A stretch of DNA of 64,000 bases from a bacterium. GTDB taxonomy: Bacteria; Zixibacteria; MSB-5A5; WJJR01. The notes below the pieces were generated by a model. The model was given only the letters and a program-made list of their open reading frames with translations, was not told where the DNA came from and ran no database searches. The translations under genes and the position numbers were made by a program. Positions within the stretch are counted from its first letter, which is position 1; every line of letters begins with the position of its first letter. The stretch is taken from the NCBI GenBank assembly GCA_021813505.1, contig JAKAKI010000001.1, positions 1 to 64,000 on the forward strand. The letters run 5' to 3'. Below, in pieces: positions 1 through 17,930 of the stretch.

Positions 1-176
1 TCCCGGTTCCCAGCGCCTCGTATCCGGTTTTTGTTCATCGGCCCACGGTTGCGTTCCACGCTTCCTCCAGACGAACGGTCACCCGTCCGCCCTTGCGTTT
101 CCCTTGTGTCGCTGTGACCTGCTTCACGGAGGACTTACACCTCCAAGTCAGTGCCCATGCCGGGCGCACATGCAAA
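1..176. other. Non-coding left edge of window
   Basis: No supportable gene is visible. Short reading frames here lack a ribosome binding site and recognisable protein features. The stretch may be the flank or relic of something lying outside the window. Confidence 0.3.
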
Positions 177-8570: not shown

Positions 8571-11483
8571 TCATCTTGCGGATTGCTGCATGATTCCGCT
8601 GATATACGGTACAAAAGCTGCCCAAAGGAACGGATGATCCGCGAGACCTAGGGTGCGAAGACGGGAAAGATACTGCAGTTGGGCCTCTCGAGCCGCCCGC
8701 CACAGAGGTCTGTCCAAACGGGAGTATATATCCGGCATCAATGCCGCTGTTGCGGCGTCCGGCACCTGCCACACAGATGCCAGGACATCGCGCGCACCTG
8801 CGATCGAGAACGCGCGCCGCAAACCGTACATTCCTTCGACCGAGTGGACCGCGCCCAATCCCGATTCGCACGAGGACAGGGTGACCAGTTGGGTTCCTCG
8901 GAGATCCATGTCGGTCACCTCCAGTGCCGAGAGGATCCCGTCATCGCGTTGTTGCGAGGATGGTTCATTCCCGATAATGGCCTGCCGGGCTCCGGCGAAA
9001 AGCAATCCCGATCTGAGCAGCGGGTTCATCGGGACGGACTTGCGCGTTAATTCGGGAGAGCCACTCCGACTGGATTCACAGTTTTCGCGCAGACAGAATC
9101 CATGTGTGGCCAGATGAACGATCCGATGTCCGGGAGCGCGAGATTTGAATTCCTCCTCACTGGCTTCCGCTCCGGTGAGGGCCTCGAATTCTTCACCCTG
9201 CGCTGGCCATGTCCCCTGGATCCCTGCGAGTTCCATTCTGCTTCCCGGGAGCGGTATGAGCAGGGAGTCCAGATGTCGTGAGCAACTCCCGCGCACAACA
9301 AACGGTGGCGCGGCAGCGACTTCACCGGAGCCATCACTGGCGTGGTCTGGCGCACGTTCGTTGGCGCGACTGTCGAAGTCGGGATCTCCGACGGCGAGAA
9401 GCCCGCGGCCAAACGGCTGCGCAATTGGCGGAGCAGCGAGCTGCCGGACGGCATCGAGGTGCGCCACATCATGTGTCTCCACGAGGTATTGACCTTGCCC
9501 GCTCCACAGCCCGGAGAACGAGACGGATCCGAGTTGGCCCGCCGGCGAAATCAGGAGCAGTCCTTTCCCGATGAGTTCCGGGAGGACGGGGCCGAGAACG
9601 GCATGGTACAGGGCTTCGGAGGTGTGACGAAACGCTTCGACATCCGACCCGGTGGGGAAATGAGCCTGCGACGCCACTTTCTGCATTTCACCGGCGTACG
9701 CCATGACCACGCTGTCGATGTGGCCCGGAGCCGATATCCAATACAAGCGTGTATTCTCCCGGCTGACAGCCACTATCGCGTAATCGGTCAAGCCGGTGCT
9801 GTCATCAGCGGGGAACTGGTAGTAGTCCAGGGCGAGGGCGTTTGCGGGGATCACGCTCTGCAATTGCCGCCCGGTGACTTTCCACGACTGCACCCGCCGA
9901 TTGAAGGTGGGGTCCGTACGTTCCAGCGCGTCGCTCGACTGATGGTATACCTCGTCGAGGGAATCGATCTTCATTGCATGGGCCGCCGAATCGACCAATC
10001 CACGACCGGCCAGAATGGCATCGGTCAGCGATTTTGCGGCCCACGCCCGCTGTTCACGGAGTTCGCGGCTGTGGCGGTCCTGCCGGCTCGAAATATCCTG
10101 ATGGCGCGTCAGGAGAACTTCTGAAGTCACTCCTTTGGTGCGAAGGATCAGATCAGCGGCAAAGGCGAGGTCTTGCTGTGATGGGTGGGGCGATTGCTTC
10201 AGTGCGCGGAGGGTCAGCGCGACGGCATCGGCCAGTTGGGTGGCGTACATCAAGGCGTCGTCATCGGGTACCGTCGCGATCAGCGCTTGCAGATTTTCGT
10301 AGAGGTTGCCTGCGGTTAACCTGGCCTCACGGTAAGCGTCGTCCGGGTGTCCCATCCGAAGGTATGTCTCTGCGAGCGCCTGGTGGGAGGAGGCAAGATC
10401 GGGATGACTCGAACCGAGTATTGAATCACCATAGCTGATCGCGGCACGAAAATGTTCTGCGGCGTTCTGCAACTGCCTTCGATCATACGCCAGCTTGCCG
10501 CGCTGATATAAGGACAGGTAACGAATCCGAAAGTCCGGAGGTGAGAGGCTTGCCGCTGAGGAGTCAGCCAGCACCAACAGTGAATCCGCCATAGAGAACT
10601 GTTTGAGTTCACGTTTGGTCTGTGCACCATCTATCAGGAAGGAAAGATATGCCGACCTGAGGTACCATTCAGATCTCACGGCTGAGGCAGTGTCGAAGTA
10701 TTGGTAGATCAATCCAAAGAGCGAATCAGCGGCAAGATCGTTTCCCAAGTGCGTGAGCGCGACCGCGAGGTTGTGGACCGTTCTCACTATTCCGGGGCCA
10801 TGATGACTCCTCAGGCAAGCACGCAAAGCAATCTGGGCGGCTTCGGCTGCATCGTGGTAACGAAATTGATGGAGGTACAGCGCGCCAAGGTTAATGTAGT
10901 ATAGCCCAGAATCAACCGGCAGTTTCAGTAACGAGATCTCACCGGCCTTGTGGAGCTCCCGGTCAGCGTCTGCATAGCGCCCCCTATCAATGTCAAGCAC
11001 CGCCAGGTTGTTGTAGGCAATTGCAATGTCAGGATCGTTTGGGGGCAACGTGGAGCGTTTCAGATCCAATGACCGCCGAAGCAAACTGTCAGCTTCATAA
11101 TAGCGACCTCTTCGCTGAGATAGCACTCCCAATGCGTTCAAAGTCCGTGCGTGAAGCCGCGGATTTGCCCCCGGATTCGATTCCCAAACTTTGAGGGCAT
11201 CTCGGAAGGTCTGTTCTGCCTTACTGGGATCGAGCTGGACCCGGATGAGTCCCAGTTTGGTTAACACCAGCGCCACATTGGTGTCGCGAGGACCGTAGAT
11301 TGAGTCGACAACCTTCAGCGCGGCCAAGGCGTAACTGCTGGCGGAATCCTCCCTTTGGACGGTATGAAAATGATCCGATCTTGCCAGCAGGCTGTCCCAA
11401 GATAATTCCCCGGCCCACGCTAAGTTGGTCCACAGGACGACCTGAAGTGAGATCGCGAAAAGAGGACGCCACCGCCTAGACAC
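8571..11483 (-). CDS. Exported TPR-CHAT protease (caspase-fold)
   Basis: A 970-residue protein. Starting at a GTG with GGAG 7 nt upstream gives a textbook signal peptide (MSRRWRPLFAISLQ...AWAGE). The upstream alternative at 11585 would overlap the previous gene and spoil the signal. Residues ~50-450 are tetratricopeptide repeats (for example ALNALGVLSQRRGRYYEADS). The last ~300 residues are a CHAT domain, a caspase/separase-like peptidase, with the catalytic His in VHLATHG (about His794) and Cys in TLSSCESGLG (about Cys872), then GMYGLRRAFSIAGARDVLASVW. It should act outside the cytoplasm. It is the last gene of a unit with a sigma-like and an anti-sigma-like protein (43-bp gap), so its substrate may be the anti-sigma; this is inferred. 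Confidence 0.88.
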   Translation of the reverse strand: MSRRWRPLFAISLQVVLWTNLAWAGELSWDSLLARSDHFHTVQREDSASSYALAALKVVDSIYGPRDTNVALVLTKLGLIRVQLDPSKAEQTFRDALKVWESNPGANPRLHARTLNALGVLSQRRGRYYEADSLLRRSLDLKRSTLPPNDPDIAIAYNNLAVLDIDRGRYADADRELHKAGEISLLKLPVDSGLYYINLGALYLHQFRYHDAAEAAQIALRACLRSHHGPGIVRTVHNLAVALTHLGNDLAADSLFGLIYQYFDTASAVRSEWYLRSAYLSFLIDGAQTKRELKQFSMADSLLVLADSSAASLSPPDFRIRYLSLYQRGKLAYDRRQLQNAAEHFRAAISYGDSILGSSHPDLASSHQALAETYLRMGHPDDAYREARLTAGNLYENLQALIATVPDDDALMYATQLADAVALTLRALKQSPHPSQQDLAFAADLILRTKGVTSEVLLTRHQDISSRQDRHSRELREQRAWAAKSLTDAILAGRGLVDSAAHAMKIDSLDEVYHQSSDALERTDPTFNRRVQSWKVTGRQLQSVIPANALALDYYQFPADDSTGLTDYAIVAVSRENTRLYWISAPGHIDSVVMAYAGEMQKVASQAHFPTGSDVEAFRHTSEALYHAVLGPVLPELIGKGLLLISPAGQLGSVSFSGLWSGQGQYLVETHDVAHLDAVRQLAAPPIAQPFGRGLLAVGDPDFDSRANERAPDHASDGSGEVAAAPPFVVRGSCSRHLDSLLIPLPGSRMELAGIQGTWPAQGEEFEALTGAEASEEEFKSRAPGHRIVHLATHGFCLRENCESSRSGSPELTRKSVPMNPLLRSGLLFAGARQAIIGNEPSSQQRDDGILSALEVTDMDLRGTQLVTLSSCESGLGAVHSVEGMYGLRRAFSIAGARDVLASVWQVPDAATAALMPDIYSRLDRPLWRAAREAQLQYLSRLRTLGLADHPFLWAAFVPYISGIMQQSAR

Positions 11484-11526
11484 GCGAACACTCCGCTGAA
11501 CCGCCGAAGGTGGAATCGATGAGAAG

Positions 11527-12447
11527 TCAAAACGCAAAATAGCGCACCGCCGTTGCGTGAAACTTCGAATCGTGTTCATAGACACAGGTCAGGCAGCCCC
11601 GCCGGCCCCACTCGGGATTCCAAACCAAGGTCCTTGATCCGGGATCATATTCGGTCTTACGCAGCACTCTATTCGGGAGAGACAGAACCCAGATGTGAAT
11701 TGGGGCGGTGTTCGGGATGCTCATGCCGGCCGTGGCAATTTCAACGCCAGCGGGGTTTGTCAGCGTTACCGTCTGAATGCGTGAGGAGTCCGCAGGTTCA
11801 AGACCAGCAGGCGGCTGATACACGAATTCGCCATCATCGAATCGTAAGGCGGTGCGAAAGGCCGCCACCGCGGCGTCGCGTTCACTTCCCGACGATGACT
11901 TTTCGCCGGGGCTGTTGGATCGTGTCGACATGGCGATGAGCTCTTCGGCCGGCACTACCGGCGTCACGACTGCCCACGAACCTTCGCTACGCCTCTGCTG
12001 TGGCGCACGGGCCACAAGCAGGATGACGATCAGCGCGGCAATTGCCAACGGAGCCAGAATCGGCATCTGCCATCTTCCCCACATGCGAGACCAGCCACTC
12101 TCACTCGGGGCCGGGCGTTCGTGAACTGCGGAATGACCGCCAGAAACCGACACCTGCGCCTCGACCCAATCGGGGAGCGGTAGCGGTGATGCCTCGCGTC
12201 CGGCGGTGGGGATGAGATGCTCGGATGCCACAGCGTGGTCCACTGCTTCGGCATACTCCAGGACTTTGCGGCGCAGGTCCGCCGAGTGTTCCAACGCCTC
12301 ACGTACCTGATGGCGTTCGGCCGGGTTGGCGGTTCCGAGCAGATAGCGCCGTATTACAGACTCTGATAGGGTCGGCACAGGCGCATCTGCCCCGCCCTTT
12401 TGCGATGCACGGATGAGCCGATCAAGCGATTGGTCGTCGAGACTCAT
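11527..12447 (-). CDS. Single-pass membrane anti-sigma-like protein
   Basis: A 306-residue protein. The N-terminal ~125 residues resemble the cytoplasmic part of anti-sigma factors (SESVIRRYLLGTANPAERHQ, helical, adjacent to the sigma gene), but there is no clear HxxxCxxC zinc motif. One transmembrane helix lies at about 128-146 (PILAPLAIAALIVILLV). The C-terminal ~155 residues are a predicted periplasmic beta domain with a late CLTC pair. It is transcribed between the sigma-like gene (99-bp gap) and the CHAT protease gene. Membrane-anchored inhibitors of this layout release sigma when their outer domain is cut. Role inferred from context and topology. Confidence 0.65.
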   Translation of the reverse strand: MSLDDQSLDRLIRASQKGGADAPVPTLSESVIRRYLLGTANPAERHQVREALEHSADLRRKVLEYAEAVDHAVASEHLIPTAGREASPLPLPDWVEAQVSVSGGHSAVHERPAPSESGWSRMWGRWQMPILAPLAIAALIVILLVARAPQQRRSEGSWAVVTPVVPAEELIAMSTRSNSPGEKSSSGSERDAAVAAFRTALRFDDGEFVYQPPAGLEPADSSRIQTVTLTNPAGVEIATAGMSIPNTAPIHIWVLSLPNRVLRKTEYDPGSRTLVWNPEWGRRGCLTCVYEHDSKFHATAVRYFAF

Positions 12448-12546
12448 TATCCACCCGGTCTTCCACTGAACATTCTACGACTGGCGATTCGGATTTCGGA
12501 AAGCAGGTGATGAAAACCACCTAAATGCACTCCACATGCGTGAGAT

Positions 12547-13152
12547 TTACTCAACATGGCGCTCCGTCAACAGTTGGCGCAGTTTCTCCCGGCAGTACCG
12601 AAGATCATCCGAGACTTTTTTGGCTTTGTTCTGGGGCCAGCGCAACACCCGCACCATCTCCCGTGGTTTGAATTCCTCGGCCGCCATGCGGACCAAGAGG
12701 CGGCAGTAGTGGTCCAAACGGCCGATACACTCGCGGACAATCCGCAATTTCTCTCCGCTCTCGACAGTCAGATCAGGTGAGTGCGCATCGGCGCGCGGAT
12801 TTGACGTGTAGTCATGTGGTTCATGGTCTCCCGCCGAAACGACTGTTTCGCGGTACCGGCCGAGCTCCTTCAGGTAATCCTTCGTCTTATTGAGACACAG
12901 AATGGCAAACCATCCGGCAAAAGTACCCTCCGCCTCCCGGTATTCGTTCAGCACACGGCAGTTGTCGCGGATGCAGTGAAGAACAATCCGGCTGCGAACC
13001 TCTTCCGCGTCATGCGGCTCCAACGACTTAAGCAGGCGCGGCGCCGCGGTCTCGAAGAAACCCATGGCGTACCGGTAGAACGACGCGGCACACGCAAGTG
13101 GGTCCGTTTCGATCAAATCCAAAAAGTGCGGCTGTGTGTGTGCCATTGCCAT
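12547..13152 (-). CDS. ECF-type RNA polymerase sigma factor-like protein
   Basis: A 201-residue protein with region-2-like helices (FYRYAMGFFETAAPRLLKS, EGTFAGWFAILCLNKTKDYLKE) and a C-terminal helical region (REMVRVLRWPQNKAKKVSDDLRYCREKLR) in place of a region-4 helix-turn-helix. Such divergent ECF sigmas bind core polymerase and target promoters and are usually held by a co-encoded membrane anti-sigma, as here. The ATG at 13152 follows weak ribosome-binding sequence; GTG at 13185 or ATG at 13146 are alternatives. First gene of the sigma/anti-sigma/CHAT unit. Confidence 0.72.
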   Translation of the reverse strand: MAMAHTQPHFLDLIETDPLACAASFYRYAMGFFETAAPRLLKSLEPHDAEEVRSRIVLHCIRDNCRVLNEYREAEGTFAGWFAILCLNKTKDYLKELGRYRETVVSAGDHEPHDYTSNPRADAHSPDLTVESGEKLRIVRECIGRLDHYCRLLVRMAAEEFKPREMVRVLRWPQNKAKKVSDDLRYCREKLRQLLTERHVE

Positions 13153-13185: not shown

Positions 13186-13927
13186 GTGATGCCAACTTCA
13201 GGAAAAGAGCGTCCGCCAACGCCTCGTGTCAAGGTATGTGCCTGGTATTGCAGGTTAACGGCAGGCGACCGTCCGAATTCCCTGGCCGCAGTCGTTGTGA
13301 CTTGTAAGGGAGTGAGGGCTCCCCGGTCGGATAGTATGTGTGTCGGCGTTGCGCCAATGATCCGTGTCGTGCTCACCAACGGCCGGCCCACACCCTCCGG
13401 GACCGGTGCCGGCCGTTGGCTCGCTCCCGGGGGGCGCGCTGAAGGAGCCAGGGGGGGGAGTGGAGACCCCGAACGCAAGAGATTGCTTCGGCGCAAAGAG
13501 CCGCGCCTCGCAATGACACAGTCATGGAATCGGCGGTGTGAAACGTCATTGCGAGGAACGTCCCCGCCGAAGGCGGGGGGAGTATGGAATCGGCGGTGTG
13601 AAACGTCATTGCGAGGAACGTCCCCGCCGAAGGCGGGGGGAGTGACGAAGCAATCTCCCACTCTCCGGATGGAAGGACTTCGTTTGAGGGGTTTCTCAAC
13701 ACGCCCCAAGGTCGGGATTTTGACTGCACGTCGAATCTGGGAAGAGACGATTGATGATGTCCACGCGAGTCTTACGCCTGGGGGAACAGGCAAGCCGTGA
13801 CGGTGCGCAAGTGTCGTCATGCGCAAAACCCGGTGGCGGAGTGTGCTTCCGCCGCCGGGGAGATGCTGATCAGAGCACCGTTTCATATATGGGGTCGCAC
13901 CGCAAGCCGATTCGTCATCATTGATAC
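13186..13927. other. Long intergenic space with dispersed repeats
   Basis: About 740 bp between divergent transcription units. It holds the repeat cluster at 13474-13662 and the promoter at 13928-13955 follows. A 328-codon plus frame across it is antisense to the sigma gene and reads repeat DNA (twice CETSLRGTSPPKAGG), so it is not taken as a gene. Confidence 0.5.
13474..13662. repeat. REP-like dispersed repeats with exact 60-bp tandem duplication
   Basis: Units built on CATTGCGAGG...CGAAGCAATCTCCC, which flank a small palindrome (CCCCGCCGAAGGCGGGG). Within it 13524-13583 is repeated as 13584-13643 at the same 60-bp period, apparently without a mismatch. Related copies occur at 51131-51370 and 62228-62262 in this window, so this is a genome-wide palindromic family. 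Confidence 0.8.
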
Positions 13928-14056: not shown

Positions 14057-15010
14057 ATGTCCAATCGCGTTTGTTCTGCGATCGTCATGGTCGTCGGCAT
14101 ATTAATCGCCGCGACCGCATCGGTTTCCGCCGCCGTCCCCACGCGGATGACAGTCCAGGGGAAGCTCACCAACGCCGCCGGTGATCCCGTACCGGCAGGG
14201 ATCAAGAGCTTCACCTTCAAGATCTACGATGCCGCAGCGGGCGGGATGGAAGTCTGGCCTGCCGGACCGGGAGAAGTGCAACCTCTGAGCACTGATGCCG
14301 ACGGGCTTTGGACCGCCGAGGTTGGCGCAGTGGTGGCTCTTACTGATCCCGTATTTTCTGGTGACACGCGCTGGCTGGAGGTGACGGTGAATGACGGCGT
14401 CAATCCAGCGGAGACACTGCCACGGATCAAGCTCAACACCAGTCCGTATACGTTCCGGTCAGAACAAAGCAATAATGCGGCCAACGCGGGCAATGCCGAC
14501 AATTTGGGTGGCCTGCCCCCTTCGGGGTATGCGCTAAACGTGCACACGCATGACGCGGCGACAGTGACGGACGAACCGGGGATCGCGTCGAGGGCCGTAT
14601 CAAGTCTCATCTTCCTTCCACAAGGAGCCACGACAATGCAGGATCTGGTTACCTGCACACTGACGATCGCGCAAGCCGGGTACATCCATGTCCAGGCGCG
14701 ATGCGGTATGACGGCCTATGGCACGACCGGTGCCAACCGAGGGTTCTTTCAGGTGGATGAGACGGCAGGCGGCTCAGAAGATCCTTTGCACTACGTGTTT
14801 GTAGGCGACCCTGCGCATGTCAACACCGGAGGCGCCTATGGTCATTCCGTATATGTCGACCGCATCTACAGCAAACCGGCGGGTGCCTATGTGTTCCGGT
14901 TAGAGGCGGTTGCTCTGCCCTCAAACGGGTCCGGCGCAACGACTCAGATTGACAACGCTGTCATCACAGCAGCCTTCTACCCGAAAGCCTACGGCACGGT
15001 CGCACCGTAG
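14057..15010 (+). CDS. Exported protein of duplicated module, copy 1
   Basis: A 317-residue secreted protein. The signal peptide ends ...SVSAA, then comes VPTRMTVQGKLTNAAGDPVP, a beta-sandwich opening with FTFKIYDAAAGG, typical of large families of surface proteins in uncultured bacteria. Residues ~30-160 are almost identical to the protein at 16980-17930; the C-terminal half differs in sequence but keeps the plan (FFQVDETAGG, AYVFRLEA, ITAAFYPKAYG). AAAGGAGG lies 6 nt before the ATG. The dockerin protein gene follows 13 bp downstream, so the two are co-expressed. No enzymatic motif; probably cell-surface or structural. Confidence 0.75.
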   Translation: MSNRVCSAIVMVVGILIAATASVSAAVPTRMTVQGKLTNAAGDPVPAGIKSFTFKIYDAAAGGMEVWPAGPGEVQPLSTDADGLWTAEVGAVVALTDPVFSGDTRWLEVTVNDGVNPAETLPRIKLNTSPYTFRSEQSNNAANAGNADNLGGLPPSGYALNVHTHDAATVTDEPGIASRAVSSLIFLPQGATTMQDLVTCTLTIAQAGYIHVQARCGMTAYGTTGANRGFFQVDETAGGSEDPLHYVFVGDPAHVNTGGAYGHSVYVDRIYSKPAGAYVFRLEAVALPSNGSGATTQIDNAVITAAFYPKAYGTVAP

Positions 15011-15023
15011 AGAGGAGACAGGC

Positions 15024-15482
15024 ATGAAACAACTGCTGATTACCCTCCTCGGACTGCTGCTCCTCCCCATAGCGGCGCTGGCCGGGTCGAACTACAATCT
15101 TAACTGGTATATCGTGGACGGCGGCGGCGACAACGCGGCAGCGTCCGCGAGTTTCAAGATGGGAGTGTCCGCGGCGCAGTCGGCGGCCGGCGAAGTGTCG
15201 TCGCCGTCGTTCCGCCTGAAGATGGGATTCTGGTACGGCGCGCACACATGCCACTGCCTGCACCAGGGGGATATCACCGGCGACGCGGCAATCGACGTGT
15301 TTGACGTCATTGGCGAGATCGGAATCGCCTTCAGTGGCGAGCCGGATCCACAGGATCCCGCATGCCCGAAGACCCGCGGCGACGTCGACAACAACGGCGT
15401 CACCGACGTCTTCGACGTGATCTACCTGATCGCCACTTCGTTCAGCGGCGGGCCGGGTCCGGTGAATCCGTGCGGTGGGTAG
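15024..15482 (+). CDS. Dockerin-type repeat exported protein, copy 1
   Basis: A 152-residue protein: signal peptide (LLITLLGLLLLPIAALAG), a short beta region (YNLNWYIVDGGGDNAAAS, FRLKMGFWYGAHTCHCLHQ), then two dockerin-like calcium loops, GDITGDAAIDVFDVIGEI and GDVDNNGVTDVFDVIYLI. Dockerin type I repeats bind cohesins in cellulosomes, but in FCB-group bacteria such C-terminal repeats are common on secreted proteins without known cohesins. The stop codon TAG at 15480-15482 lies at the very edge of the 139-bp repeat element, so the element may supply it. Ribosome binding site GAGGAGACAGGC. Confidence 0.8.
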   Translation: MKQLLITLLGLLLLPIAALAGSNYNLNWYIVDGGGDNAAASASFKMGVSAAQSAAGEVSSPSFRLKMGFWYGAHTCHCLHQGDITGDAAIDVFDVIGEIGIAFSGEPDPQDPACPKTRGDVDNNGVTDVFDVIYLIATSFSGGPGPVNPCGG

Positions 15483-15617
15483 GGTGCGTTATTAACGCAC
15501 CATTTTGGCGACCGGGCACGATGGCGGTTGTTGATGAAACGGGGAGGTCTCAGGGATACGTTCCGGACGGGGCGAGGCAGTTGTGCTATCGCGAGGGTAG
15601 GTGCGTCAATGACGCAC
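15479..15617. repeat. REPIN-like 139-bp element, copy 1
   Basis: Two palindromes, GGTGCGTTATTAACGCACC near the left end and GGTGCGTCAATGACGCACC at the right end, enclose about 90 bp of conserved non-coding DNA. Copy 2 (16760-16898) has the same length and roughly 90% identity. This matches the plan of REPIN elements, short non-autonomous repeats mobilised in trans by RAYT (IS200-like) transposases; no RAYT gene is in the window. Confidence 0.75.
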
Positions 15618-15642
15618 CTGCTGCTCGTCTTGAGGAGCTGAC

Positions 15643-16542: not shown

Positions 16543-16763
16543 GGAAGTTCGGCATAGCCCTCATACTCCTGGCGACGGTTGTTTGCGTTGCCGAAGTGCG
16601 CGCCCAGTGCGACTGCCCGAATCCCGGCAATCCAGATGCTGATGGCGTCTTGGACGTGTCTGATCTTGTCGCAATCCGTAACCGCGCGTTCAATGACACG
16701 ACTTGCGTTACTGATCCCTTGTGCCCTGTCGAGCGGTGTGATTTCAACGCAGACAGTGGGTAG
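16539..16763 (+). pseudogene. Truncated dockerin-type exported protein
   Basis: Signal peptide (MRKFGIALILLATVVCVAEVRAQ), then one complete dockerin loop (NPDADGVLDVSDLVAIRNRAF) and the opening of a second (VERCDFNADSG), where the frame ends in TAG. That point is exactly the left end of the 139-bp repeat (16760). A normal member would continue through a full second calcium loop, so the element truncated the gene. Translational coupling to the upstream membrane-protein gene is intact, so a 74-residue product may still be made. Confidence 0.6.
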
Positions 16764-16898
16764 GGTGCGTGGTTCACGCACCACTTCTGCGACCGGGCAC
16801 GATGGCGGTTGTTGATGAAACAGGGAGGTCCCAGGGATACGTTCCGGACGGGGCGAAGCAGTCGTGCTATCGCGAGGGTAGGTGCGTCGATGACGCAC
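16760..16898. repeat. REPIN-like 139-bp element, copy 2
   Basis: Left palindrome GGTGCGTGGTTCACGCACC (imperfect), right palindrome GGTGCGTCGATGACGCAC, same spacing and core as copy 1 (15479-15617). It disrupts the dockerin gene at 16539-16763. Confidence 0.75.
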
Positions 16899-16979
16899 GA
16901 GCTCAAGATGATCTGGAACAAATGATAAACGAAAGTTGCGGATTGCGAATTCTCTCACCCATGTTTGAGGAGGCCCACC

Positions 16980-17930
16980 ATGCCGAAGTGTTACCGATCT
17001 GCGATCCTCACGATTGCCGGGATGCTGCTCATTGCGGCGGGAACCAGCTTTGCAGCCGTTCCCACCCGCATGACAGTCCAAGGGAAGCTCACCAACGCCG
17101 CCGGTGATCCCGTACCGGCAGGGCTCAAGAGCTTCACCTTCAAGATCTACGATGCCGCAGCGGGCGGGATGGAAATCTGGCCGGCCGGTCCGGGAGAAGT
17201 GCAACCTCTGAGCACTGATGCCGACGGGCTCTGGACCGCCGAAGTTGGCGCCCTGGTGGCTCTTACTGACCCGGTCTTCTCAGGTGACACGCGCTGGCTG
17301 GAGGTGACGGTGAATGACGGCGTCAATCCGGCGGAGACACTGCCACGGATCAAGCTCAACACCAGTCCGTATACGTTTCAGGCTGAGCAGAGCAACAATG
17401 CTGCGAACGCGGCGCACGCCACAGATGCCGACAACCTGGGTGGTCTCGCGCCTTCCGGGTATGCACTAAACGTGCATTCCCATGATGCCACGACAGTCAC
17501 GGACGAGCCGGGGATCGCGTCCAACACATCGTACGACTTCCTCACGCTCACACAGGGTACGACTGTCATGGTTGATATGATCACGACATCCATCACAATC
17601 CCTGTTGGCGGATACATCGTCGTCCGGGCAAAAACCCAGTTCCGTACCTACGGTAACTCGGCCGGGAAATACGCCTTCTTTCAGATCGATGAAACGGCGG
17701 GTGGGGACAGACTTGGAGGGGCCTACGAGGTAGAAGTCGGCAGTGGCGCGGACGGTTTCTATCTGCCTGTTGTGGTTGAGCGGGTGTATTTCAAGCCCGC
17801 AGGTACTTATGCATTTCGTCTGGAGGGACGGGCGTATGAGGCGAACCCGGGAGGAACCGTAACCCAGGCATGGGCGCATGTCATTACAGCAACCTTCTAT
17901 CCAACAGCGTATGGTCCGGTTACACCCTGA
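16980..17930 (+). CDS. Exported protein of duplicated module, copy 2
   Basis: A 316-residue paralogue of 14057-15010. The signal peptide differs, but VPTRMTVQGKLTNAAGDPVP and the following ~130 residues are nearly identical at the DNA level, and the C-terminal half diverges (VGSGADGFYLPVVVERVYFK). A recent duplication of the N-terminal half, or gene conversion, is likely. GAGGAGG lies before the ATG. A dockerin protein gene follows 15 bp downstream. Probably surface-exposed; function unknown. Confidence 0.75.
   Translation: MPKCYRSAILTIAGMLLIAAGTSFAAVPTRMTVQGKLTNAAGDPVPAGLKSFTFKIYDAAAGGMEIWPAGPGEVQPLSTDADGLWTAEVGALVALTDPVFSGDTRWLEVTVNDGVNPAETLPRIKLNTSPYTFQAEQSNNAANAAHATDADNLGGLAPSGYALNVHSHDATTVTDEPGIASNTSYDFLTLTQGTTVMVDMITTSITIPVGGYIVVRAKTQFRTYGNSAGKYAFFQIDETAGGDRLGGAYEVEVGSGADGFYLPVVVERVYFKPAGTYAFRLEGRAYEANPGGTVTQAWAHVITATFYPTAYGPVTP

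Follow-up and report, generated by a model that had tools for sequence, protein, structure and literature searches.

Sigma factor, membrane anti-sigma-like protein and predicted exported TPR-CHAT protease encoded as a conserved gene triplet in a class of Zixibacteria

Gene content of the locus

The DNA stretch studied here, called the window, comprises 64,000 nucleotides (positions 1 to 64,000 of contig JAKAKI010000001.1, assembly GCA_021813505.1) from a bacterium of the Zixibacteria class MSB-5A5. On its minus strand, from position 13152 to 8571, a sigma-like gene is followed by a gene coding for a single-pass anti-sigma-like protein and then by a TPR-CHAT gene. This order, the common strand and the intergenic gaps of 99 bp (sigma/anti-sigma) and 43 bp (anti-sigma/CHAT) had been described in a first-pass annotation of the window, and all of them were reproduced from the open reading frame (ORF) coordinates.

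The sigma ORF extends from 13185 to 12547 on the minus strand. It is open to GTG 13185, and the probable start is ATG 13152 because the relatives start at the equivalent residue. The resulting protein of about 201 residues (12547-13152) has no Pfam match and, taken alone, scores under the cut-off of TIGR02937 (6.7e-5; 22.6 bits for a cut-off of 42.9). This model is matched by all seven members of the sigma family, with a best value of 8.5e-10, and sigma relatives were found in 7 of the 133 genomes of the class, the window genome included. Judged on its sequence, the window sigma is probably a divergent factor of the extracytoplasmic function (ECF) type.

The anti-sigma gene (11527-12447, minus strand) codes for 306 residues. 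Hydropathy and the AlphaFold2 model give the same layout: a helical N-terminal domain, one transmembrane (TM) segment and about 160 outer residues, mostly beta, which bears out the large outer domain announced by the first-pass annotation. The TM segment covers residues 128-146 (12010-12066; hydropathy 2.79 over 19 residues; helix 131-146 in the model) and the mostly beta outer domain residues 189-306 (11530-11883; mean predicted local distance difference test, pLDDT, of about 60-90 by block). The HxxxCxxC zinc ligands of zf-HC2 are absent from the window anti-sigma and its close family and are present in most other anti-sigmas of the class. The window protein reaches only 4e-4 with NCBIfam NF052375, below the cut-off; its family has no Pfam match and no sequence relative in the PDB, and a Foldseek search with the outer domain, on a low-confidence model (pLDDT 66), gave no match below 0.1. 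An M50 site-2 protease is encoded in the window genome. The same anti-sigma N-terminal domain and TM segment also occur fused to FlgO-like and TPR parts (L293:1973-4267 and L294:1912-4311); these fusions of 760-800 residues, many in the class, carry no CHAT domain and place another sensor on the same anti-sigma domain.

The third gene (8571-11483, minus strand) codes for 970 residues from GTG 11483, which is preceded by GGAG; a longer ORF opens within the anti-sigma gene. From this GTG, the N-terminus MSRRWRPLFAISLQVVLWTNLAWA (11412-11483), followed by GEL, is a plausible signal peptide with equivalent N-termini in relatives. Signal peptides were predicted for the window protein and for all 52 long- or medium-type CHATs paired with a membrane anti-sigma, in agreement with the first-pass annotation, and the TPR-CHAT protein is thus predicted to be exported and to lie outside the inner membrane. 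The TPR region (10266-11348) is matched by TPR_12 (9e-29), TPR_10 and related models, and the caspase-like protease domain (8604-9623) by CHAT (PF12770; E 2.4e-57 in one search and 2.6e-58 in another). In Foldseek, the AlphaFold2 model of the CHAT protein (predicted template modelling score, pTM, 0.85) matched Csx29 best (8eex, E 1.2e-13), then DdvA (8ROT) and then separases. The catalytic residues are His794 in HLATHG (codon 9102-9104; His828 in the long ORF) and Cys872 in LSSCESG (codon 8868-8870; Cys906 in the long ORF). Both motifs are intact, as first noted from the window alone, and the dyad is invariant in the 95 CHATs compared (95/95).

Distribution and layouts of the triplet

CHAT domains were found in 89 of the 133 class genomes. 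The CHAT loci sampled comprise most long-type loci, the medium-type loci and 20 short-type ones; a CHAT-protein search of 58 relatives yielded 26 further loci, most of them with a sigma and an anti-sigma gene beside the CHAT gene. A sigma/anti-sigma pair stands beside 71 of the 85 full-length CHAT genes examined in the class, for a chance rate of 5-9% (a sigma gene within 5 kb on either side, calculated from 15-38 sigmas per genome), and the remaining 14 include contig-end loci and truly lone genes. Conversely, a profile (A5) built from 20 anti-sigmas recovered 49 near-full-length relatives, which form the main anti-sigma family. About 39 of 46 are located beside a CHAT gene, which in some cases is cut off by the end of the contig so that just its start is visible; seven have no adjacent CHAT, and the other three could not be judged, owing to contig ends or a masked stretch. 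Four genomes (G126, G128, G129 and G105) harbor both lone anti-sigmas and lone long CHATs. Conservation of the triplet is therefore strong in both directions.

The closest syntenic triplet (L036, genome G012) shares 35% identity with the window in the sigma and 34% in the CHAT protein, with E 2e-10 for the anti-sigma. The gene order of the window is found again in L081, and L066 contains CHAT, sigma and anti-sigma genes. L063 and L041 are apparently the two halves of one triplet with a contig break between them, L062 ends at a contig edge, and L065 has no adjacent CHAT on its short contig. Among the 80 best CHAT relatives, mostly from other phyla, a sigma gene lies within the fetched stretch in 12, not all of which have an anti-sigma; the layout is therefore mainly a feature of the class of the window. 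No fourth gene is conserved alongside the exported triplets.

Variants of the arrangement were also seen. The window genome has a further triplet (L004, G000:C45:13582-18206) in which the CHAT gene is convergent to the sigma gene and to that of a double-zinc-finger membrane anti-sigma, and in L074, L075 and L038 one sigma/anti-sigma pair stands next to a tandem of two or three CHAT genes.

The 71 paired loci fall into two layouts. In the exported layout (52 loci), a CHAT with an export signal is paired with an anti-sigma with a TM segment; in the cytosolic layout (19 loci), a CHAT devoid of signal and TM segment is paired with a soluble anti-sigma-like protein. No locus out of 71 shows a mismatch of compartments. 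In the exported set, pairwise distances, from which species relatedness was not removed, correlate between CHAT and sigma (r 0.65), between CHAT and anti-sigma (r 0.64) and between sigma and anti-sigma (0.89). The cytosolic arrangement is seen in another locus of the window genome (L005, G000:C83:4157-9567) and in L087-L106, where the sigma gene is accompanied by a soluble anti-sigma-like protein of about 195 residues and a cytosolic short CHAT. This soluble protein carries a conserved FDSxLLPLPEGVRPA...TRRLKY sequence and matched no Pfam family in the three members tested. In L005, the triplet is followed by a gene for an S8 subtilisin-like peptidase with a dockerin.

A conserved arginine and the possible cleavage of the anti-sigma

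The alignment of 53 CHAT-linked membrane anti-sigmas revealed that the best-conserved column is an arginine (52 of 53, with Lys in the remaining one); the zinc ligands come after it (48-49 of 53). In nearly all of these proteins it is situated 13-30 residues beyond the TM segment, and in 52 of the 53 it is followed by S, G, A, N or T. In the single-zinc-finger group this arginine is visible in an alignment with few gaps; in the seven-member anti-sigma family of the window it corresponds to R176, an invariant column (codon 11920-11922, in AMSTR followed by SNSP). A motif made of a hydrophobic residue, three residues of any kind, Arg and a small residue was detected in 33 of the 53 CHAT-linked anti-sigmas versus 1 of 22 unlinked zf-HC2 anti-sigmas from the same genomes. 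In the AlphaFold2 model, R176 opens a disordered segment (residues 175-182, pLDDT under 50) that links the membrane part to the outer domain. On sequence and model together, the Arg176-Ser177 region looks like a candidate cut site.

The leading explanation of the triplet, to which we give an even chance, is that the CHAT protein cleaves the anti-sigma as its paired site-1 protease. Same-compartment pairing, the Arg-small motif in an exposed loop, the intact dyads and the fusion of the same parts in DdvA argue for such a cut. The three genes would form an envelope-signalling unit in which, we infer, the cytoplasmic N-terminal domain of the anti-sigma holds the sigma factor at the inner membrane. 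The exported TPR-CHAT protein would stay inactive on the outer side of this membrane until its TPR part senses a signal. It would then cut the anti-sigma in the exposed loop that follows the membrane segment, probably at the Arg176-Ser177 bond or close to it, after which the housekeeping site-2 protease (M50) and cytoplasmic proteases would complete the cleavage and free the sigma factor.

Several points weigh against cleavage by the CHAT protein. Seven anti-sigmas keep the arginine without an adjacent CHAT, so that this residue could be structural. In separase (ctSPD) the P1 Arg is read by D2151, and Csx29 has K670 (PMC9729208). A separase-type Arg-reading Asp was looked for and rejected: the residue is Ala947 (long ORF numbering) in the window CHAT and Ala or Ser in most relatives. 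The compartment match was dropped as independent evolutionary evidence because a single change on the CHAT tree suffices to produce it, which makes it one event and not 71. Finally, the distance correlations carry uncorrected species relatedness.

The missing Arg pocket would be accounted for if the CHAT protein were a sensor or cofactor that regulates the anti-sigma by binding its outer domain, with no cut, as a split version of the sensory part of DdvA. In DdvA, TPR-CHAT and anti-sigma belong to the same chain, and the CHAT protein co-diverges with both the sigma and the anti-sigma, as expected of such a partner. However, the invariance of His and Cys, which are also kept in the DdvA family, suggests that catalysis is used, and we consider a non-cutting partner unlikely.

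Sigma factors often regulate neighbouring genes. The CHAT protein could accordingly be an output under the control of the sigma factor (a stress or death effector, or an envelope protease), the anti-sigma answering to another site-1 protease. The position of the CHAT gene behind the anti-sigma gene in an operon-like arrangement, in the window and in many loci, is compatible with this possibility. However, no promoter-like sequence common to sigma and CHAT genes exceeded the chance level in 16 convergent loci (9.94 matches out of 12 within a locus and 9.96 across loci, in what is a weak test), and this mildly disfavours an output role. Such a role would also leave the compartment match and the conserved arginine unexplained, and we regard it as improbable.

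We consider it very improbable that the target of the CHAT protease is some third protein close to the membrane, such as a sensor of the outer membrane or of a substrate, whose cleavage product is detected by the anti-sigma. CHATs and anti-sigmas do occur as orphans and the outer beta domain could bind a ligand or a partner, but a conserved fourth gene is lacking beside the exported triplets. That the grouping results from chance or from an annotation artefact is hardly credible, since, even if the window sigma and anti-sigma alone stay below the curated cut-offs, the association recurs in numerous genera of the class, whether one starts from the CHAT or from the anti-sigma, and the active-site residues are invariant.

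CHAT proteases are common in bacteria, and few of them have known substrates. A conserved pairing of one protease with one anti-sigma would give dozens of CHATs at once both a substrate and a candidate bond. If cleavage by the CHAT protein holds true, a caspase-type site-1 protease would be added to envelope signalling, and the exported protease may sense a signal outside the inner membrane and release the sigma switch.

Other features of the window lie outside the triplet. Upstream of the sigma gene, two exact tandem units of 60 bp (13524-13643) contain the GC-rich palindrome CCCCGCCGAAGGCGGGG. Secreted-protein genes are duplicated at 14075-14589 and 16998-17521, and a spacer of 148 bp at 15475-15622 and 16756-16903. 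The secreted paralogues were considered as a conserved fourth part of the system and discarded, with relatives at only two other CHAT loci of the class (L079 and L042). The edge of a group II intron (Rfam RF02001, 5.4e-8) occupies window positions 1-88, on the minus strand.

Comparison with known systems

The CHAT proteins share with separases their fold and the His/Cys dyad (9hm7 and 5fby, E about 1e-9) and differ from them by the Ala or Ser that replaces the P1-Arg-reading Asp. The anti-sigma resembles RseA, of the RseA/DegS/RseP system, and RsiW: it is predicted to cross the membrane once and to bind the sigma through a cytoplasmic domain, and the genome encodes an M50 site-2 protease. In contrast, the proposed site-1 protease is neither DegS nor PrsW and would be a caspase relative of the CHAT type encoded together with each anti-sigma.

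Csx29, the closest fold, cleaves a sigma inhibitor within a small loop (PMC10028731). The type III-E Craspase/CASP system (Csx29-Csx30-CASP-sigma; PMC10028731, PMC9729208) also associates a TPR-CHAT protein with a His/Cys dyad, a sigma inhibitor and a sigma factor. In that system, however, the CHAT protein is cytosolic and effector-bound, whereas the window protein has a predicted signal peptide from GTG 11483, and the inhibitor is here a membrane anti-sigma without detected likeness to Csx30. No match to PF03787 (RAMPs), and hence no Cas7-11/gRAMP, was found in the whole window genome; the locus is therefore not a type III-E CRISPR system, which supports the CRISPR independence put forward in the first-pass annotation. 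More widely, the CHATs of the class could be dedicated, paired site-1 proteases of ECF anti-sigmas in two layouts (exported with membrane, cytosolic with soluble), cutting at a conserved arginine next to the sigma-holding part, and the type III-E Craspase could be a branch of this widespread CHAT/sigma switch that was captured by CRISPR; we advance this tentatively, as possible and short of probable. The pairing of one protease with one anti-sigma would in any case offer a context free of CRISPR from which the Csx29/Csx30/sigma module could have been taken. In the open-access literature, most subscription journals being outside its scope, we found no report of a CHAT beside a sigma/anti-sigma pair outside type III-E CRISPR.

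The nearest precedent is DdvS/DdvA of Myxococcus xanthus (PDB 8ROT and 8RW5), the genetics of which are cited in PMC4374960. DdvA, called a transmembrane anti-sigma factor in the title of 8ROT, gathers anti-sigma, TM segment, TPR and CHAT in a single chain. As in the topology predicted for the window, an ECF sigma adjoins a TM anti-sigma, TPR and CHAT parts lie beyond the membrane, and the catalytic His and Cys are kept in the DdvA family. A basic motif is also located just after the TM segment, PQRT in DdvA and APTRS in Pyxidicoccus relatives. Three such Pyxidicoccus fusions (zinc finger, TM, TPR, CHAT) were examined (L267:2955-5909, L268:3301-6273 and L272:3064-6087); a sigma gene immediately precedes L267 and L272, and APTRS is present in L267 and L268. 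That components encoded apart in the window are joined there in one chain strongly indicates that anti-sigma and CHAT share one function. In contrast to DdvA, every class triplet examined, that of the window included, encodes the anti-sigma and TPR-CHAT in two genes; in the window type, moreover, the CHAT carries a signal peptide of its own and the anti-sigma an outer beta domain of its own. Because DdvA unites anti-sigma, TPR and CHAT, the triplet would represent a split, trans-acting and CRISPR-independent CHAT/anti-sigma system, the counterpart in separate proteins of the fused DdvA design. Its novelty is lowered by this precedent, which the first-pass annotation had not mentioned; its notable traits are the spread of the triplet, the matching of compartments in two layouts and a bond that can be tested.

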